A stretch of DNA of 64,000 nt from Novipirellula aureliae (GTDB lineage Bacteria > Planctomycetota > Planctomycetia > Pirellulales > Pirellulaceae). Where the stretch lies: positions 88,316 through 152,315 of the forward strand of contig NZ_SJPY01000009.1 of assembly GCF_007860185.1 (NCBI RefSeq), read 5' to 3'. Both the position numbers and the translations under genes were made by a program. Below the pieces are notes generated by a model. It ran no database searches. It saw only the letters and a list, made by a program, of their open reading frames with translations, and was not told the origin of the DNA. This document shows positions 4,936 to 30,275 of the stretch, piece by piece. Positions within the stretch are counted from its first letter, which is position 1. Each line of letters opens with the position of its first letter.

Positions 4936-6231
4936 CTACATTTCTGAAATGCAATAGAGATAGCGTCCAGATCGGAGCACCATCCGATCTCCAGCGATCG
5001 CAGGGGTGCCGCTGCTGTCACTCTCGTCCGATTCAAATCGATTGGTGGACAGAATTTCAAAAGTCGGTTTTGCTGGCAAGACGAATGTCCCCTGGTAGCG
5101 GCTGAGCACATACAATCGATCGCCCACCCGCACGGGCGATGCGTAGACAGGCTTGCCACTGCCGCTCAAGTCAGGAACACGCTCGCGGTAGACCGACTCG
5201 CCCGTTTTCGCATCAAGGCAGTGAGCTTGCCCGCGGTCATCGATCCAATAGAGGTGCCCCTCGTGCAAGAGCGGCGTGGCGACATACGAACTCTCGCGAC
5301 TGGACCATACCATATGCGTGTCGGTAACGTCGTCTTTTCCTCCCGCACGAATTGCGTGGCTGCCCGCTGAGCGATAGCCGCCGAACGTATAAACAATTCC
5401 ATCGTGTGCGATCACAGACGGGCAAATGTTGCCAGTCAAGTTTGTTTCGGCGTACCATTTCAACTTGCCTGTGTCTGGATTCAGTCCCCATACTTCACCT
5501 GGCACCGAGATTACCAATTCCGCTGTCGCATCCGACAACTCAACAATCAGAGGCGTTCCGTAGGCAAGCTCTAGCGAATTGGCTTCCGACTTCCAAACTT
5601 CACGGCCCGTTTTCTTGTCCAGTGCAAGGATCGCGCGGCTCTCTTCCGATGCGTTCACGATCACCATATCCTTGTACAACACGGGACTGGCGGCGGATCC
5701 CCAACGACGATTGCTCGATTCCTTCCCCACGCCGACTCGCCATTGCTCATTTCCGTCCATGTCAAACGCTAATACCCCGCTCTTGCCGAAAAAAACAAAC
5801 ACTTGATTGCCGTCGGTTACTGGCGTGTTGCTTGCATAACCATGCTCCGTGATGTAACCATGGCTGTCATCCTCCGGCATTTCGGCAGCAACCGTTTTTG
5901 TCCAAAGTGACTTGCCATCGGATAAATTCACGCAAACCAGGTGTCGCTTTAGATTTTCTTTCGAGCCTGTCGTTTCGCTTGCGACTCCATAACCCGAATA
6001 GCAGGTGACAAAAACTCGGTCTCCCCAAACCACCGGCGATGAGGATCCTGGGCCAGGCAAAGCGGTTCGCCAAGCCAGGTTTTCGGTTTCACTCCAAGAA
6101 AGCGGGATCTTCGAGTCTGCTCCATCGCCATCGCCATCGTTTCCGCGAAATCGAGGCCAATCGGCGGCGGTGGAAACTTTGGGTAGAAAAAGGCTGAGTA
6201 TCAATAAGAGGAATGTCAGTGATCGGTTCAT
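4936..6231 (-). CDS. Exported PQQ-type beta-propeller protein
   Basis: A 431-aa protein starting at ATG 6231 with a signal peptide of about 22 residues ([17 protein letters not shown] ... TAA). The mature protein begins with the [11 protein letters not shown] motif seen at the start of many planctomycete PQQ-like propellers, then repeats blades with [34 protein letters not shown] and [13 protein letters not shown]-type strands. The family (PF13360/BamB-like fold) includes PQQ dehydrogenase domains and many non-enzymatic scaffolds; no PQQ-ligand or cytochrome motif is visible, so enzymatic activity is doubtful. Length is normal for the group. It lies 35 bp from the start of a tandem repeat array that would contain or displace its promoter. 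Confidence 0.88.
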
Positions 6232-24191: not shown

Positions 24192-24421
24192 ATCGTCGTG
24201 TCCATTAACGGGCGTTATATGCTGGTTGATTAACGTGCCCCAACAGGCTAAATCAATTTTGGATCAGTCACAATTACCGACACGGAGCGGGGTGTGTAGG
24301 GGCGCCGATGGGAACAGAATATTTCCTTGAAGTTTCGAATCATCACCTACAACTTGAGGGGAAGAATCGTTGTCACCCGTCGTCGGACCGCTTTTCTTTG
24401 CCCATTGCCTTGCCACCGCTT

Positions 24422-24537
24422 GATTCTAGGCTTGGCAAAAGAGTGGCTTGGGCATCTTGCCCCAGAATAGGCTGCGGCTGGAAGCCACAGCCACGACAGA
24501 TTCTTACTCTCATTCTCCGTTGTGACAAAGCACTAGC
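24422..24537 (-). repeat. Dispersed composite repeat, copy 1
   Basis: Read on the minus strand this segment contains, in order, GCTAGTGCTTTGTCACAACG, a GAGAATGAGAGTA motif, GTGGCTGTGGCTTCCAGCCG, a GGGGCAAGATGCCC stretch and CACTCTTTTGCCAAGCC. The same modules in the same order occur at 36951-37094 on the plus strand, and partly at 47.3-47.5, 59.1-59.3 and 61.2 kb. Confidence 0.7.
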
Positions 24538-24550
24538 CTACTTGAGCGAG

Positions 24551-24567
24551 CTAGGCAACGCGCCTAG
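24551..24567 (+). other. Short hairpin upstream of the riboswitch
   Basis: CTAGGC-AACGC-GCCTAG is a perfect 6-bp stem 22 bases upstream of the guanidine-III motif, in the probable leader of the exporter transcript. It may end upstream transcription or be part of the leader fold; no U-tract follows it. Confidence 0.4.
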
Positions 24568-24589
24568 ACTGAAAGGAGTATATGACGTT

Positions 24590-24630
24590 CCGGACGAGAC
24601 GCGCCGTACCCGGTTAAGACAAGACGACGC
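24590..24630 (+). ncRNA. Guanidine-III (ykkC-III) riboswitch
   Basis: A 41-nt segment that matches the guanidine-III aptamer as I remember it from the Thermobispora structure at all but about five positions, with identical length and no gaps. Seen directly: CCGGACGAG (24590-24598), CGCCGTACCCGG (24602-24613) and GACAAGACG (24618-24626). The pairing CCGG/CCGG forms P1; GCGCCGT (24601-24607) and ACGACGC (24624-24630) form P2 of the pseudoknot with one A-C mismatch. The aptamer is followed at once by T7, and the exporter ribosome-binding site GGAG comes 20 nt later. Position in front of a Gdx-type guanidinium exporter is exactly the expected context. Whether it acts on translation or termination cannot be read off. 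Confidence 0.9.
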
Positions 24631-24661
24631 TTTTTTTCTAACTTTCCTCGGGAGCGTTGTC

Positions 24662-24985
24662 ATGAACGTTTGGTTCATTCTTTTGCTGGCCGGACTACTG
24701 GAAATCGCCTGGGCAATTGGCTTGAAATACAGTGATGCCTTCACCAGGTTTTGGCCAAGTGTTTGGACGGTGTTGGCCTACATTGCCAGTATCTTGTTGC
24801 TATCGCTCGCTGTTCGCCAGATCCCGATTGGGACCGCCTACCCGGTGTGGATGGGGATCGGAGCACTCGGAACAGCGGTCTTCGGAATTGTATTCTTAGG
24901 TGAATCGACATCGCTTTGGCGATTGTTGTTCTTAATGCTGCTAGTCATCTCGCTAGCCGGATTGAAATTATCGTCCGAGGTTTAG
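24662..24985 (+). CDS. gdx: Small multidrug resistance family guanidinium exporter (Gdx/SugE type)
   Basis: A 107-aa protein with four membrane helices, started at ATG 24662 with GGAG seven bases upstream. The conserved glutamate lies in the first helix (LLEIAWAIGLKYSDAF), and the LPIGTAYPVW-like segment reads QIPIGTAYPVWMGIGALG, followed by GIVFLGES and GLKLSSEV, which is the SugE/Gdx pattern and not the EmrE one. Gdx proteins exchange guanidinium for two protons. The guanidine-III riboswitch in its leader independently supports this. A DoxX-family gene follows after 47 bp and may share the transcript. Possible alternative: a quaternary ammonium exporter of the same fold. Confidence 0.93.
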   Translation: MNVWFILLLAGLLEIAWAIGLKYSDAFTRFWPSVWTVLAYIASILLLSLAVRQIPIGTAYPVWMGIGALGTAVFGIVFLGESTSLWRLLFLMLLVISLAGLKLSSEV

Positions 24986-25032
24986 CATGGTTTTCTATCA
25001 GCCCCGGCACCCCCTCGAATCTCGAGAATCAA

Positions 25033-25470
25033 ATGAATTTTATTAAGAAAGCAAGCCAAACGACTGCTCAACGATCGGTGATTCTGATTCGCTTCATGGT
25101 TGGATTCGTATTCTTATCGGAAGGTCTTCAGAAGTTTCTATTTCCTGACGCTCGGGGAGCTGGTCGATTTGAGAAGATTGGGCTGCCTGAGCCAGAATCT
25201 CTGAGTTATTTCGTTGGTAGCTTTGAGATCGTTTGTGGCATTGCCATTGTGCTTGGTTTGTTAACGCGTTTCGCAGTGCTGCCGACGATCACGATTATGC
25301 TCGTCGCGATTGCGACGACCAAGTTACCAATGCTTGCCGAAGAAGGTTTCTGGGAGGCCGCTCACGCGGCCAGGACCGATTTTTCGATGCTGCTCGGTTC
25401 GCTCTACCTGCTGATTGTGGGTGCTGGAAAATGGTCCGTCGATGCACAGTTGAAACCGAATTCAGAATAG
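25033..25470 (+). CDS. DoxX family membrane protein
   Basis: A 145-aa, four-helix membrane protein from ATG 25033. Motifs typical of DoxX (PF07681) are visible: LIRFMVGFVFLSEGLQKFLFP near the N-terminus, a GLPEPESLSYFVGSFEIVCG middle part with a helix-breaking Gly/Glu pair, and LLGSLYLLIVGAGKWSVDA at the end. Family roles are poorly known (quinone-related, thiosulfate oxidation and redox membrane complexes have been suggested). It lies 47 bp downstream of the guanidinium exporter, same strand, without a visible terminator, so it may fall under the riboswitch. Confidence 0.88.
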   Translation: MNFIKKASQTTAQRSVILIRFMVGFVFLSEGLQKFLFPDARGAGRFEKIGLPEPESLSYFVGSFEIVCGIAIVLGLLTRFAVLPTITIMLVAIATTKLPMLAEEGFWEAAHAARTDFSMLLGSLYLLIVGAGKWSVDAQLKPNSE

Positions 25471-25556
25471 TCGCTTGGGCGCTAGCCCCGTATTTTTCAG
25501 CGGTCGCGTGGCAAACGCCAAACCGGCAAATCCTAAAACCAAATCGAGTTGAAGGA

Positions 25557-28500
25557 TTAGTGCTTGGTTAGCAATGCCTCTTCGGTCTTGACGGGTTGGT
25601 TTTCTGCAGAGCGATGATTCGGCAAAATGTCCATCAGCAAGCTGAACACCAACGGGATCACTAACAAGGTGAAGATGGTGGCAAACGCTAGACCACCGAC
25701 GACGACGGATCCGAGGCCGCGATAGAGTTCGCTGCCGGAGCCAGGGGCGATCACCAACGGCAGCATCCCGAAAATACTGGTGAAAGTCGTCATGAAGATT
25801 GGGCGCATACGTGTTCGAACTGATTCGCAGATAGCGTCGCGAGCTGACATTGGTGCGATCTCACCCTCCGCAGCACTGTGGTGACCTCGCATGAAATTCA
25901 GCGCCTGATGCACAATCAAGATAGCATTGTTGACCACCACGCCGATCAAAATCACGAAGCCGAGCATCGTTAAGACGTCGAGTTGCTGTGTCGGGTCCTC
26001 GCGGTGTACCATCCACAATCCGACGAAGCCGCCGACGGTCGCAAGCGGCACTGTGAACATGATTACCAGTGGATAGAGGAAATTCTCGAAGAGCGCCGCC
26101 ATCAAGAGGTAAGTGATAACCAACGCCAGGAAAAATCGACTTAATGCAACGCTGCCGAGCGACTCGCGATTCCAACCGTTCCAATGTCCCATCAGTGCTG
26201 CGCGAACATCCGTTAAACGATCGGCATTGCCTGACAACGAGACAAAAATATCGTTCCCCATCTTGCCTTCGGCTCGTGCCTGTTCCACGACATCGAGGAT
26301 CGTCTCTTGAGCTTCTTCGAGAGCCACATGGTTGGGCGGCGTCACGGTCAAAGCGATCGCTCGTTGCTGCTCCACCCGCCGTATTTCTTGCGAGGCTTCG
26401 GTTGGTATGAAATCAGCGATCTGACCTAGCGGCACCATGACAACCGAGCCGTCGGATTCTCGTACCGAAACAGGCAAGTCCGCAATCTGCTCGGGGAAAA
26501 TTTCCGATGCGGGATCACGGATCAATACCAAATCGATGTTATCGCCTTCGAAGTCAAAGTCACCGACGAACGACCCGTCAATCATCGACCGAGCTGACAT
26601 CGCCAAGTCACTGACGTTGATGTTTAGTCGTTTTGCGACCTCCTGTTTAATCTGCAACTGCCGCTCGGGTCCCGCTTCGTCGAAATTCTCAGGCGACGTG
26701 CGGACGGAGAACTTCGAGAAAGCTTCTTGTAGCCGCTGTTCCAGGTAGGTGCAGGCAGCTTTTAAGCGGACCATGTCATTGCTACTGACTTCGATATCGA
26801 CGGCGTTCGAGCTGCCCGCGCCCCGTCCGAATATCGAGGCTTGTGATGTCACTCCCTTGCTGGCGGGGATCACGTTAAACGCTTTGTTAAAGATAGCCGC
26901 AACCGGTTCAACGTTTGCCGGGTCATCGCTGATACCGATCATGAACACGCTTCCTCGCGCGACGACAAAGAAAAACTCCTTCAGCGCTGGGATATCGTGA
27001 TACTCCGTTCCGGTTCGTTGATCAATCACCGGTCCATACTGAGACGCTTCTTCCGAGTTCTTTGCGTTCCAAAACGGTTTGAGTTCTTGTTCGATCCGCT
27101 GTCCAACATAGTAGTTCTCCATTACGGAATAACCCGCTGGAGTCGACATGCGACAGAACGTAAAGTTCTTGTTCCCATTCGGAAGGTAGCTGGCGGGAGG
27201 CATCAGTGCGATACTAAGTCCGATGGATCCTAGCGTCACGATTGCAATCAGCATCAGCCTTAGCCATGCACTAGAAAGACTGCGGAAGGTCAACAGATGG
27301 ATCATCGAGGTCCACCTATTTCCAAACCAAGTGAAGATCTTGACCAGACCGAAGAGGCCAACAAACGACGCGGTGATCGAATCATGCCATGTAGGTGATT
27401 CTCTCCGAGAATTGTTGTGGTCCGCGTCGCCGAGACTAGTGGCGATGTGTTTCGGAGCACGCAGAAATAGAGCTGCGGCGGTCGGGATCACGGCGACCGA
27501 AACCACCAACGACAATGTGACGGCGGCACAGATCGCCAAGACGATATCGTAGAACAGTTGGCCTGCTTCGTCTTGAATCGTTAGCACCGGTGCGAAAACG
27601 GCGATCGTTGTTAGCGTCGATGCCAGAATGGCTCCCCAAACTTCTTTCGTTCCATTGTAGGCGGCTTGCCGAGGACTTGCTCCCAGTTGCAAATGCCGAT
27701 CGATGTTTTCGAGGACCACGATGGCGTTGTCGACCACCATCCCGACGGCGAAGCTGAGTCCTGCCAATGAGATGACATTCAAGTTTCGATCCGCGAACCA
27801 CATGACCACGAAGGTCCCAATGACAGAAATCGGGATCGATACAGCGACAATCATCGTCGATCGGATACTCCGCAAAAACAGCAGCAGTACAAGCACTGCT
27901 AGCCCACCGCCGATCCACAGGTTCTGTTCGACCAAGCCGATGGCGCTATAAATGTAGTGCGAATCGTCGAACGCCATCCGCAAACGCAATCCATACCGAT
28001 CATTTTTGAAACTTCGCAGGACACCGCCTTCGGCGTTCATCTGTTCCACGACTCGGTTGACATTTTCGATGATGTCCAACACGTTACTGCCGGTCTTTCG
28101 TTTGACGAAGATCGTCAACGACGTTCGCCCTTTGCACTGGTCAAAGTGGATCGTTTTCTCCAGGGCAAGCTCCACGCGGGCGACATCCGATACACGCACC
28201 GGGCTGCCCAGTTCGTCATACTTGATGATCGTATCGCGAAGTGGCTCCAGCGAGTTGTATTGACCAAGTACACGAAAGCGAACATCTTGACGACTGTCAG
28301 CCAAGTCGCCGGCTGTCGCGTTGACATTGTCCAACCGCAGTGCAGCATTCAATTCCGAAATCGTGATGCTGCGACGTGCCAACGCTTCGGGATCAAATCG
28401 GATTTGAACTTGATGTTGTCGTCCCCCTTTAATTTCGATCTCCGCCACACCCTCGATCCGCTCGAGACTTGGGATGAGGAAGCGATCGGCATGATCGTAG

Positions 28501-28964
28501 AAGGTCGCGACCTCGAAATCGGGGTCTTCGGCTTGTAACAGCAGGTAGGCAATTGCGTTGTCACCGGCGGTATCGGCCAAATCGATGATTGGGCGATCGA
28601 CATCCTCGGGGTACTCTGGAACTTCGTCGATCTTATTAGAGACTTCTTGAAGGATTCGGTCCGGCGAAGCACCGACGTTGAACTCAAGCGTGATTCGTGC
28701 GCTACCGAGGCTGGCGAGTGACGTCATCTTCCACAAGCCTTGAACCGACTTCAGCTTTTCCTCTTGTTCAAGGATGATCGACTTCTCAATCTCCTCAGGA
28801 CTACGACCATCCCAGTTGGTCCTAACCGTGATCACGGGCCGATCAACATCGGGGGTCAACTGCACGGGGATGCGTGAGAGTGCGATGACGCCGAACAAGA
28901 GAACCAAGATCACACCAACGGTGGTCTTGACCGGATTCTCAATACAAAATTTGATTGGGTCCAT
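25557..28964 (-). CDS. RND efflux transporter, HAE-1/AcrB type
   Basis: A 1135-aa inner-membrane pump starting at ATG 28964 (MDPIKFCIENPVKTTVGVIL). The standard architecture of two 6-helix halves with periplasmic loops is visible; the fourth-helix motif reads GMVVDNAIVVLENIDRH, with Asn at the second acidic position found in AcrB, as in many other HAE-1-like relatives. The second half shows GFVILIGVVVNNAILIVHQ and RMRPIFMTTFTSIFGMLPL. Length is slightly above the usual 1030-1050 because of loops near 500-540 and 640-690. Together with the membrane fusion protein gene 15 bp upstream it forms a drug or metabolite efflux operon. No outer-membrane TolC is next to it; the TolC at 45.5 kb is in another operon. 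Confidence 0.95.
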   Translation of the reverse strand: MDPIKFCIENPVKTTVGVILVLLFGVIALSRIPVQLTPDVDRPVITVRTNWDGRSPEEIEKSIILEQEEKLKSVQGLWKMTSLASLGSARITLEFNVGASPDRILQEVSNKIDEVPEYPEDVDRPIIDLADTAGDNAIAYLLLQAEDPDFEVATFYDHADRFLIPSLERIEGVAEIEIKGGRQHQVQIRFDPEALARRSITISELNAALRLDNVNATAGDLADSRQDVRFRVLGQYNSLEPLRDTIIKYDELGSPVRVSDVARVELALEKTIHFDQCKGRTSLTIFVKRKTGSNVLDIIENVNRVVEQMNAEGGVLRSFKNDRYGLRLRMAFDDSHYIYSAIGLVEQNLWIGGGLAVLVLLLFLRSIRSTMIVAVSIPISVIGTFVVMWFADRNLNVISLAGLSFAVGMVVDNAIVVLENIDRHLQLGASPRQAAYNGTKEVWGAILASTLTTIAVFAPVLTIQDEAGQLFYDIVLAICAAVTLSLVVSVAVIPTAAALFLRAPKHIATSLGDADHNNSRRESPTWHDSITASFVGLFGLVKIFTWFGNRWTSMIHLLTFRSLSSAWLRLMLIAIVTLGSIGLSIALMPPASYLPNGNKNFTFCRMSTPAGYSVMENYYVGQRIEQELKPFWNAKNSEEASQYGPVIDQRTGTEYHDIPALKEFFFVVARGSVFMIGISDDPANVEPVAAIFNKAFNVIPASKGVTSQASIFGRGAGSSNAVDIEVSSNDMVRLKAACTYLEQRLQEAFSKFSVRTSPENFDEAGPERQLQIKQEVAKRLNINVSDLAMSARSMIDGSFVGDFDFEGDNIDLVLIRDPASEIFPEQIADLPVSVRESDGSVVMVPLGQIADFIPTEASQEIRRVEQQRAIALTVTPPNHVALEEAQETILDVVEQARAEGKMGNDIFVSLSGNADRLTDVRAALMGHWNGWNRESLGSVALSRFFLALVITYLLMAALFENFLYPLVIMFTVPLATVGGFVGLWMVHREDPTQQLDVLTMLGFVILIGVVVNNAILIVHQALNFMRGHHSAAEGEIAPMSARDAICESVRTRMRPIFMTTFTSIFGMLPLVIAPGSGSELYRGLGSVVVGGLAFATIFTLLVIPLVFSLLMDILPNHRSAENQPVKTEEALLTKH

Positions 28965-28979
28965 GATCGGTAGGTTTCG

Positions 28980-30275
28980 CTATTTGTCGACGATTTGTTG
29001 GCCAGTACGGTACGTTCCTGGCACGGGACTCAACGGGGAACGATCTTCATCAACTCGAACGATTGCGCCGGGGGTTAATCGCTCTAGCCCCTCCGTGACC
29101 ACTTGGACTCCTGGTACAACCCGCTCAACATCCGTTTCGCGTTGGCAAGCGATAGCGTAGGACTCGCGGGTTTGCGACAAGACTCGGACCGGCACCGGCT
29201 GCGCCAACCACACGGGCTGCGGTTCTCCATGCGGTCCGTTTTTATCTTGTGGCTGCAGTATCCAAAGGGTCGCCTCATCTGGTTTGATCAACACCGCATC
29301 GCGGGGCACGATTAGCTCGGTCGATTCACGCATCACCGGTACGAACACACTGACTCCCATTCCTGGCAACAGTTTTCCGTCTTGATCATCGAGTGCGATG
29401 CGAACAGGAAAGGTGCGGCTGCCTAGCGAGCCTTTTGCATTGATCGAGAAAACCTTCCCTTCAAGTTCCATCCCCAAGCTATCGACAATCAGAGTGACCG
29501 AATCGCCAACGCTTAGCAGTGGCAGCGATTCTTCGGGGACCATAATCCGAGCATCGATTCGCCCCGATGAAACGATCTCAACAATCTGGCTGCCGACCGA
29601 GACGTATTCCCCTAGTTCGGAATGTTTGGCGACAACGCTACCGTCGAACGGTGCGATTAACTCGAGACGCATATTGCGTTCTTGGGCTTCTTTGAGCAAC
29701 ACCTGCAGCTGCGACAAGGACGCTTCGAGCTCTTCGATTAGCGAACGTTTCTGTTCCACTTCGCTGGAAGAAACCGCATTTTGACGGAACATATCTTCGA
29801 AGCGGCGGAGTTCACCTTTTTCGAAGGCTTGGGTGGCCTTTTTTTCGGCAATCTGTGATTCAATCTTGGCCTCGTCTAATTTTGTCCAAGTGTCATCGAT
29901 ACGCGCCAGCACTGTTTTGCCGCCGACAACCTTTGTCCCTTCATCCACCGGCAAGGCAACCACTTTCCCAGCCACCTCGGTCGCAATCGTTGCGGTGCGC
30001 AACGCGACCAGGTCACCGATCAAAGTCCGCACAGGCATGATCGATGCTCGTTGGATCTCACCGACTCGAACCAATTGGGCCTGCGGACTACGTGGTGGTC
30101 CCTTACCAGCAGGGGAGCTGGCTGAAACCTCGCCACCTGCCGAGTTAACTTTTTTGACTGCGAGATAGCCAACGAGTCCACCGAGCAGAAAGGTCGTCAT
30201 GGCAACGGACAAAACAGAAACAGAGAACCGTTGAGAGAGATGCTTTTGACGTTGGTTTTGGCGAAGCATGAGCAT
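28980..30275 (-). CDS. RND periplasmic adaptor (membrane fusion protein)
   Basis: A 431-aa HlyD/AcrA-type adaptor starting at ATG 30275 or at a second ATG six bases later. One membrane anchor at about 20-40 (SVLSVAMTTFLLGGLVGYLAV), a lipoyl half-motif (GKVVALPVDEGTKVVGG), a coiled-coil hairpin (about 125-195: ATQAFEKGELRRFEDMF ... LEASLSQLQVLLKEAQ), the second lipoyl half (APFDGSVVAKHSELGEYV) and a beta-barrel domain (SIPEES-like MVPEESLPLLSVGD) are visible. It bridges the RND pump to an outer-membrane channel. First gene of the operon with the pump; its upstream region is occupied by a tandem repeat array beginning 74 bp away. Confidence 0.93.
   Translation of the reverse strand: MLMLRQNQRQKHLSQRFSVSVLSVAMTTFLLGGLVGYLAVKKVNSAGGEVSASSPAGKGPPRSPQAQLVRVGEIQRASIMPVRTLIGDLVALRTATIATEVAGKVVALPVDEGTKVVGGKTVLARIDDTWTKLDEAKIESQIAEKKATQAFEKGELRRFEDMFRQNAVSSSEVEQKRSLIEELEASLSQLQVLLKEAQERNMRLELIAPFDGSVVAKHSELGEYVSVGSQIVEIVSSGRIDARIMVPEESLPLLSVGDSVTLIVDSLGMELEGKVFSINAKGSLGSRTFPVRIALDDQDGKLLPGMGVSVFVPVMRESTELIVPRDAVLIKPDEATLWILQPQDKNGPHGEPQPVWLAQPVPVRVLSQTRESYAIACQRETDVERVVPGVQVVTEGLERLTPGAIVRVDEDRSPLSPVPGTYRTGQQIVDK

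Follow-up and report, generated by a model that had tools for sequence, protein, structure and literature searches.

A guanidine-III riboswitch upstream of a Gdx-type exporter gene in Novipirellula aureliae, with a predicted translational ON mechanism

We have analyzed a window of 64,000 nucleotides (the whole stretch of DNA under study, to which all positions refer) from the planctomycete Novipirellula aureliae. The features of the locus are collected in Table 1. A guanidine-III aptamer is followed by a gene of the SMR family, gdx, which starts 31 nt past the aptamer core on the same strand, and then by a gene of the DoxX family. Between the aptamer and gdx there is a T7 run (24631-24637) and a Shine-Dalgarno sequence, GGGAG (24650-24654), before the ATG at 24662. 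The assignment of this locus as a guanidine-III riboswitch with a Gdx exporter is supported by the sequence comparisons described below.

Table 1. Coordinates of the features found at the riboswitch locus
Feature	Position	Strand	Basis
Guanidine-III (ykkC-III) riboswitch aptamer	24573..24633	+	Rfam RF01763, full model match
Minimal 41-nt aptamer core	24590-24630	+	Sequence
P2 5' strand GCGCCGU	24601..24607	+	Rfam consensus structure in cmscan alignment; sequence
Switching strand GACGACGCUUUU: P2 3' strand (24624-24630) and first 4 U of T7	24623..24634	+	Minimum-energy fold
Ribosome-binding-site arm GGGAGCGUUGUC, Shine-Dalgarno GGGAG inside, ends at start codon	24650..24661	+	Sequence, fold
gdx, SMR-family protein, guanidinium-exporter (Gdx/SugE) type, 107 aa	24662..24985	+	PF00893 97.6 bits
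doxX, DoxX-family membrane protein, 145 aa	25033..25470	+	PF07681 67.9 bits, cut-off 23.6

The original prediction had read the 41-nt motif as a ykkC-III aptamer and had proposed a scan with the corresponding Rfam covariance model as a check. This reading was borne out, as in the cmscan analysis RF01763 scored 56.3 bits, well over the cut-off of 36 (E = 5.7e-09 for the window). It was also the sole match at gathering threshold when the whole window was compared with Rfam; a permissive Rfam scan of 24300-25600 gave nothing beyond Guanidine-III, and no second RF01763 copy was found in the genome. The conserved core blocks CCGGACGAG, CGUACCCGG and ACAAGACG are all present in the cmscan alignment, and P2 is formed by the pairing of 24601-24607 with 24624-24630, with C24604-A24627 as the lone mismatch. 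The likeness to guanidine-III riboswitches extends over the full length of the model and to the SMR gene downstream, the difference being a hairpin 5' of the core that is weak or missing here, as indicated by gaps in the alignment. PMC2864571 describes the motif as first found ahead of emrE and speB genes, chiefly in Actinobacteria and deltaproteobacteria, and the SMR gene of the window matches the emrE-type neighbour reported there. Our literature search found no paper on guanidine riboswitches in Planctomycetes, which does not show that they are unpublished. A relative of the same genus has exactly the same 41-nt core with a different linker, which points to selection.

The product of gdx scored 121.1 bits against the NCBI SugE model NF008512, slightly under the cut-off of 126, and fell far below the cut-offs of the NCBI Qac and EmrE models. 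Because of this near miss we label it as Gdx/SugE type and not as a proven SugE equivalog. The best solved relatives were 8vxu and 6wk5 (the latter we take to be Gdx-Clo), both at E about 1e-26, whereas the best EmrE chain reached 4e-13. Residues E14, W17, S43, Y60 and W63 align with E13, W16, S42, Y59 and W62 of Gdx-Clo, which are among the substrate-site residues described in PMC7695847; according to this paper W16 is conserved in Gdx, members of the Qac subtype having Gly or Ala instead. The window protein therefore keeps the substrate site of Gdx-Clo, including the Gdx-type Trp16, and, together with the PF00893 match and the closeness to 8vxu and 6wk5, this supports the proposed reading of the gene after the aptamer as a Gdx/SugE-type exporter. 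Elsewhere in the genome another SMR-family match (contig C5:308719-308889, L195) covers only profile positions 3-59 and has no guanidine-III match.

The minimum-energy fold of 24612-24664 predicts a 12-bp hairpin of -14.4 kcal/mol between the switching strand and the ribosome-binding-site arm, in which GACGACGC (the P2 3' strand) and the first four T's pair with the bases just before the AUG. Its z value was -2.27, with 4 of 200 shuffled sequences as stable. When the linker alone was shuffled the window value was -14.6, with z -4.27 and none of 200 shuffles as stable. A longer fold (24588-24680) contains the same hairpin and was not clearly better than shuffled sequences (z -1.46, 18/200 as stable). 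P2 and the ribosome-site hairpin are predicted to be mutually exclusive, one strand being common to both, and this makes the published translational ON switch the likely mechanism. Specifically, a 2025 review (PMC12186494) states that guanidine-III frees the Shine-Dalgarno sequence on guanidine binding and protects the transcript, and the window locus fits the first of these mechanisms. Without guanidinium, GACGACGC and the U's after P2 would pair with GGGAGCGUUGUC, masking the Shine-Dalgarno sequence and what lies between it and the AUG; with guanidinium the aptamer would be stabilised, the strand kept in P2 and the ribosome-binding site left free. In the OFF hairpin the mismatch A of P2 would be paired with a U, so that a plausible role of the mismatch is to tune how the two states are balanced. 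We consider it very probable that the guanidine-III riboswitch acts here as a translational ON switch for Gdx; ligand binding, the direction of control, the transcription start and the role of the mismatch are what we infer from the sequence.

The original prediction had taken the T7 run and the A-C mismatch as deviations that might mean a different expression platform. The T run is not conserved, and its first four T's are predicted to pair with the Shine-Dalgarno region, so that it does not stand as a deviation. The use of the T's after the core as an anti-Shine-Dalgarno arm appears as a local solution of the window, not common to the sequences of the relatives. Mismatch and T run both fit the known sequestration of the Shine-Dalgarno sequence, and a different platform is unsupported.

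We have searched for the same arrangement in other genomes. Matches to RF01763 occurred in 9 of 60 near relatives, in 13 of 392 genomes across the phylum and in 30 of 241 from the family, each count including the own genome, and these overlapping sets gave 38 planctomycete loci (L001-L038), the window's included. Scanning a named collection for the core motif gave at least 118 further loci (L039-L156); as the motif pattern fixes a C opposite the A/G position and the matches listed are incomplete, this sample is partial and biased. One of the 118, L043, is on the same contig as L014, and was treated as planctomycete in the folds with its duplicate linker dropped, and L049 gave no start codon. 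Each of the 38 planctomycete loci carries gdx downstream, at a distance of 17 to 81 nt from the core. Among the matches listed, 121 of 156 loci have gdx by profile (38/38 planctomycete and 83/118 others), and some of the 35 listed loci without it, e.g. L101, are surely chance matches. We also observed 31 of the 118 listed named-genome loci with an A-form motif (A at the 3'-side position of the P2 mismatch) and no nearby gdx frame by profile, which may be chance or precede other genes. In L014/L043 the linker between aptamer and gdx is 81 nt, longer than other planctomycete linkers, and contains repeated GGGCCCCTGGAGCCCG-like units.

As criterion we required that 5 or more bases of the P2 3' strand pair with the ribosome-binding region, and shuffled linkers served as control. 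The pairing was predicted for 30 of the 38 distinct leaders from planctomycetes, with a shuffled mean of 10.7 (10.8 in a repeat run) and a maximum of 19. Beyond the phylum, among the matches listed, 46 of 81 leaders had it (shuffled mean 28.8, maximum 41), above all 200 shuffles; the outside-phylum part of an 80-locus subset gave 24/52 (shuffled mean 18.1, maximum 27), no clear excess. In the same-genus relative there is no T run, TATTCC following the core and GGGTACGTTGTC preceding a GTG start. Its short fold has 13 pairs with the ribosome region, 7 of them from the P2 strand (z -1.67, 14/200 shuffles as stable); in its longer fold the pairing is different and the pre-start bases are still mostly paired. 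Eight of the 38 planctomycete leaders had no ribosome-site hairpin in the short fold. In genus g59 (L011, L012, L015, L016, L021, L022, L023 and L026) this hairpin was absent from the short fold and the P2 strand was found instead in a hairpin upstream of the Shine-Dalgarno sequence, while the locus of a ninth g59 genome, L034, has the usual hairpin. The longer folds of L012 and L016 show CUUAUC, directly ahead of the AUG, paired with the aptamer segment GAUAAG.

Swap tests, which ask if the two arms of one leader fit each other, had a mixed outcome overall. They included 35 of the 38 planctomycete leaders, the three with linkers longer than 45 nt being omitted. Swapping the ribosome-binding half gave p = 0.077 (n=35), and swapping the anti-Shine-Dalgarno arm a one-sided p = 0.0135 (n=35), which became 0.0008 (n=28) after post-hoc exclusion of seven hairpin-less g59 loci. 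The window's own anti-Shine-Dalgarno arm was not better than those of the others (-14.6 vs a mean of -15.7), perhaps because a U run pairs with most purine-rich sites.

The position of the mismatch was compared over the same loci. On the 3' side of P2 it is A in 38/38 planctomycete loci; the base facing it is C in 33 of these and A in the other five. In the parsed named-genome matches listed it is A in 82 of 117 and G in 35, with one unparsed. The 80-locus subset of the named-genome matches had the A form in 56 of 75 parsed loci, and four of the five unparsed ones were G by eye. Named-genome matches listed with gdx comprise 51 of the A form and 32 of the G form. As the A form predominates in the sample, the A-C mismatch is the common form and not a defect, and it cannot be counted as a deviation as had been thought. 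In 31 of 35 short folds the A of the mismatch is paired to a U, cases of other hairpins included. Besides, among the matches listed from outside the phylum, leader hairpins were stabler with the A-form P2 than with the G form: the median z was -1.99 (n=49) for A and -0.36 (n=32) for G (Mann-Whitney p = 0.0011), a statistic that ignores shared ancestry and is thus a lead, not a result. The comparison on the 80-locus subset was much alike (p = 0.0009, n=34 and 18). We propose tentatively, with rather less than even confidence, that in planctomycetes and beyond the aptamer strand may double as the anti-ribosome-site strand, the pre-start bases imitating the P2 5' strand and the A of P2 being kept as the balance-setter. 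If true, an A-form P2 would predict this platform and a G-form P2 its absence.

Other explanations of the leader have to be weighed against the translational ON switch. A helix directly followed by seven T's resembles an intrinsic terminator, and in a transcriptional platform of this kind the P2 stabilised by guanidinium would stop transcription. This would turn the exporter OFF with its own substrate, contrary to the ON direction published in PMC12186494. P2 is mismatched and reaches only -4.8 kcal/mol as a bare helix, and none of the other 37 planctomycete loci has a directly adjoining T run (L023 has a T7 six bases further on). The terminator pattern scan found no such site at the T7 run, although it allowed loops of 3-8 only, which leaves P2, with its loop of 16 bases, outside its reach; its 2 matches were both inside gdx, at chance level (1.7 expected). 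We have rejected the terminator of P2 and T7 on the lack of a scan match, the unconserved T run and the weak P2, and regard it as highly unlikely. Equally improbable to us is that the riboswitch is locked, the aptamer being kept and the OFF hairpin too stable for the ligand to reverse. In favour of a lock, the fold of 24590-24664 with P2 forced is about 9 kcal/mol weaker than the free fold (-12.3 vs -21.3), ligand and tertiary energy being uncounted in these values. Against this, as the RNA is being transcribed the aptamer can fold ahead of the hairpin, and the same-genus relative shares the 41-nt core unchanged despite its different linker.

A further alternative concerns doxX, which had been put forward as a new member of a guanidine regulon. 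Its product is like the DoxX family by its PF07681 score, with no NCBIfam model over its cut-off. The gene is on the same strand as gdx after a gap of 47 bp, in which the pattern scan found no terminator-like site, in agreement with the original prediction, and such an arrangement would suit a gdx-doxX operon under the riboswitch with a real guanidine-related role for DoxX. We find this very improbable from the synteny, which can be tested only in guanidine-III gdx loci where 600 nt or more follow gdx and was searched with a one-sequence query and then with a profile of 28 DoxX sequences. DoxX adjoins gdx only in the window, that is in 1 of 111 testable loci among the matches listed (1/86 in the 80-locus subset), and the only other match of the profile among the loci listed was in L096 (E = 0.0016 in the 80-locus subset, 0.0023 with all loci listed), about 3 kb away. 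Membership of the guanidine regulon was rejected on these numbers. No DoxX match with an E value of 0.001 or less was obtained in the two genomes of the same genus, one of which shares the riboswitch. At this threshold the family-wide search found matches in 32 of 240 genomes, with few close orthologues. Those of 67-79% identity (in G478, G384, G575 and G031) had no gdx match in the surroundings searched; their neighbours, named by reading translations, were metal-ATPase-like and methyltransferase-like genes, a glycogen-debranching-like gene or a permease-like gene. G478 and G384 have both riboswitch and DoxX orthologue, far apart or on separate contigs. The literature search found no paper linking DoxX with guanidine. 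We conclude that doxX is probably a chance neighbour of gdx, with read-through from gdx being possible. In G390 the DoxX orthologue (L191, G390:C15, about 5017-5357) is in two pieces, one with an internal stop, as if being lost. Beyond doxX, the minus strand of the window at 25557-30275 codes for an RND pump and a membrane-fusion protein (PF00873, PF16576), convergent towards doxX.

As a whole, the earlier reading of this DNA had read the element well and over-read its details, and its extension to DoxX is unsupported; one genome's neighbouring gene does not make a regulon member. The two seeming oddities are reduced to one testable reading, in which mismatch and T run would both belong to the OFF hairpin, and what we describe is apparently an ordinary guanidine detoxification switch in the Planctomycetota.
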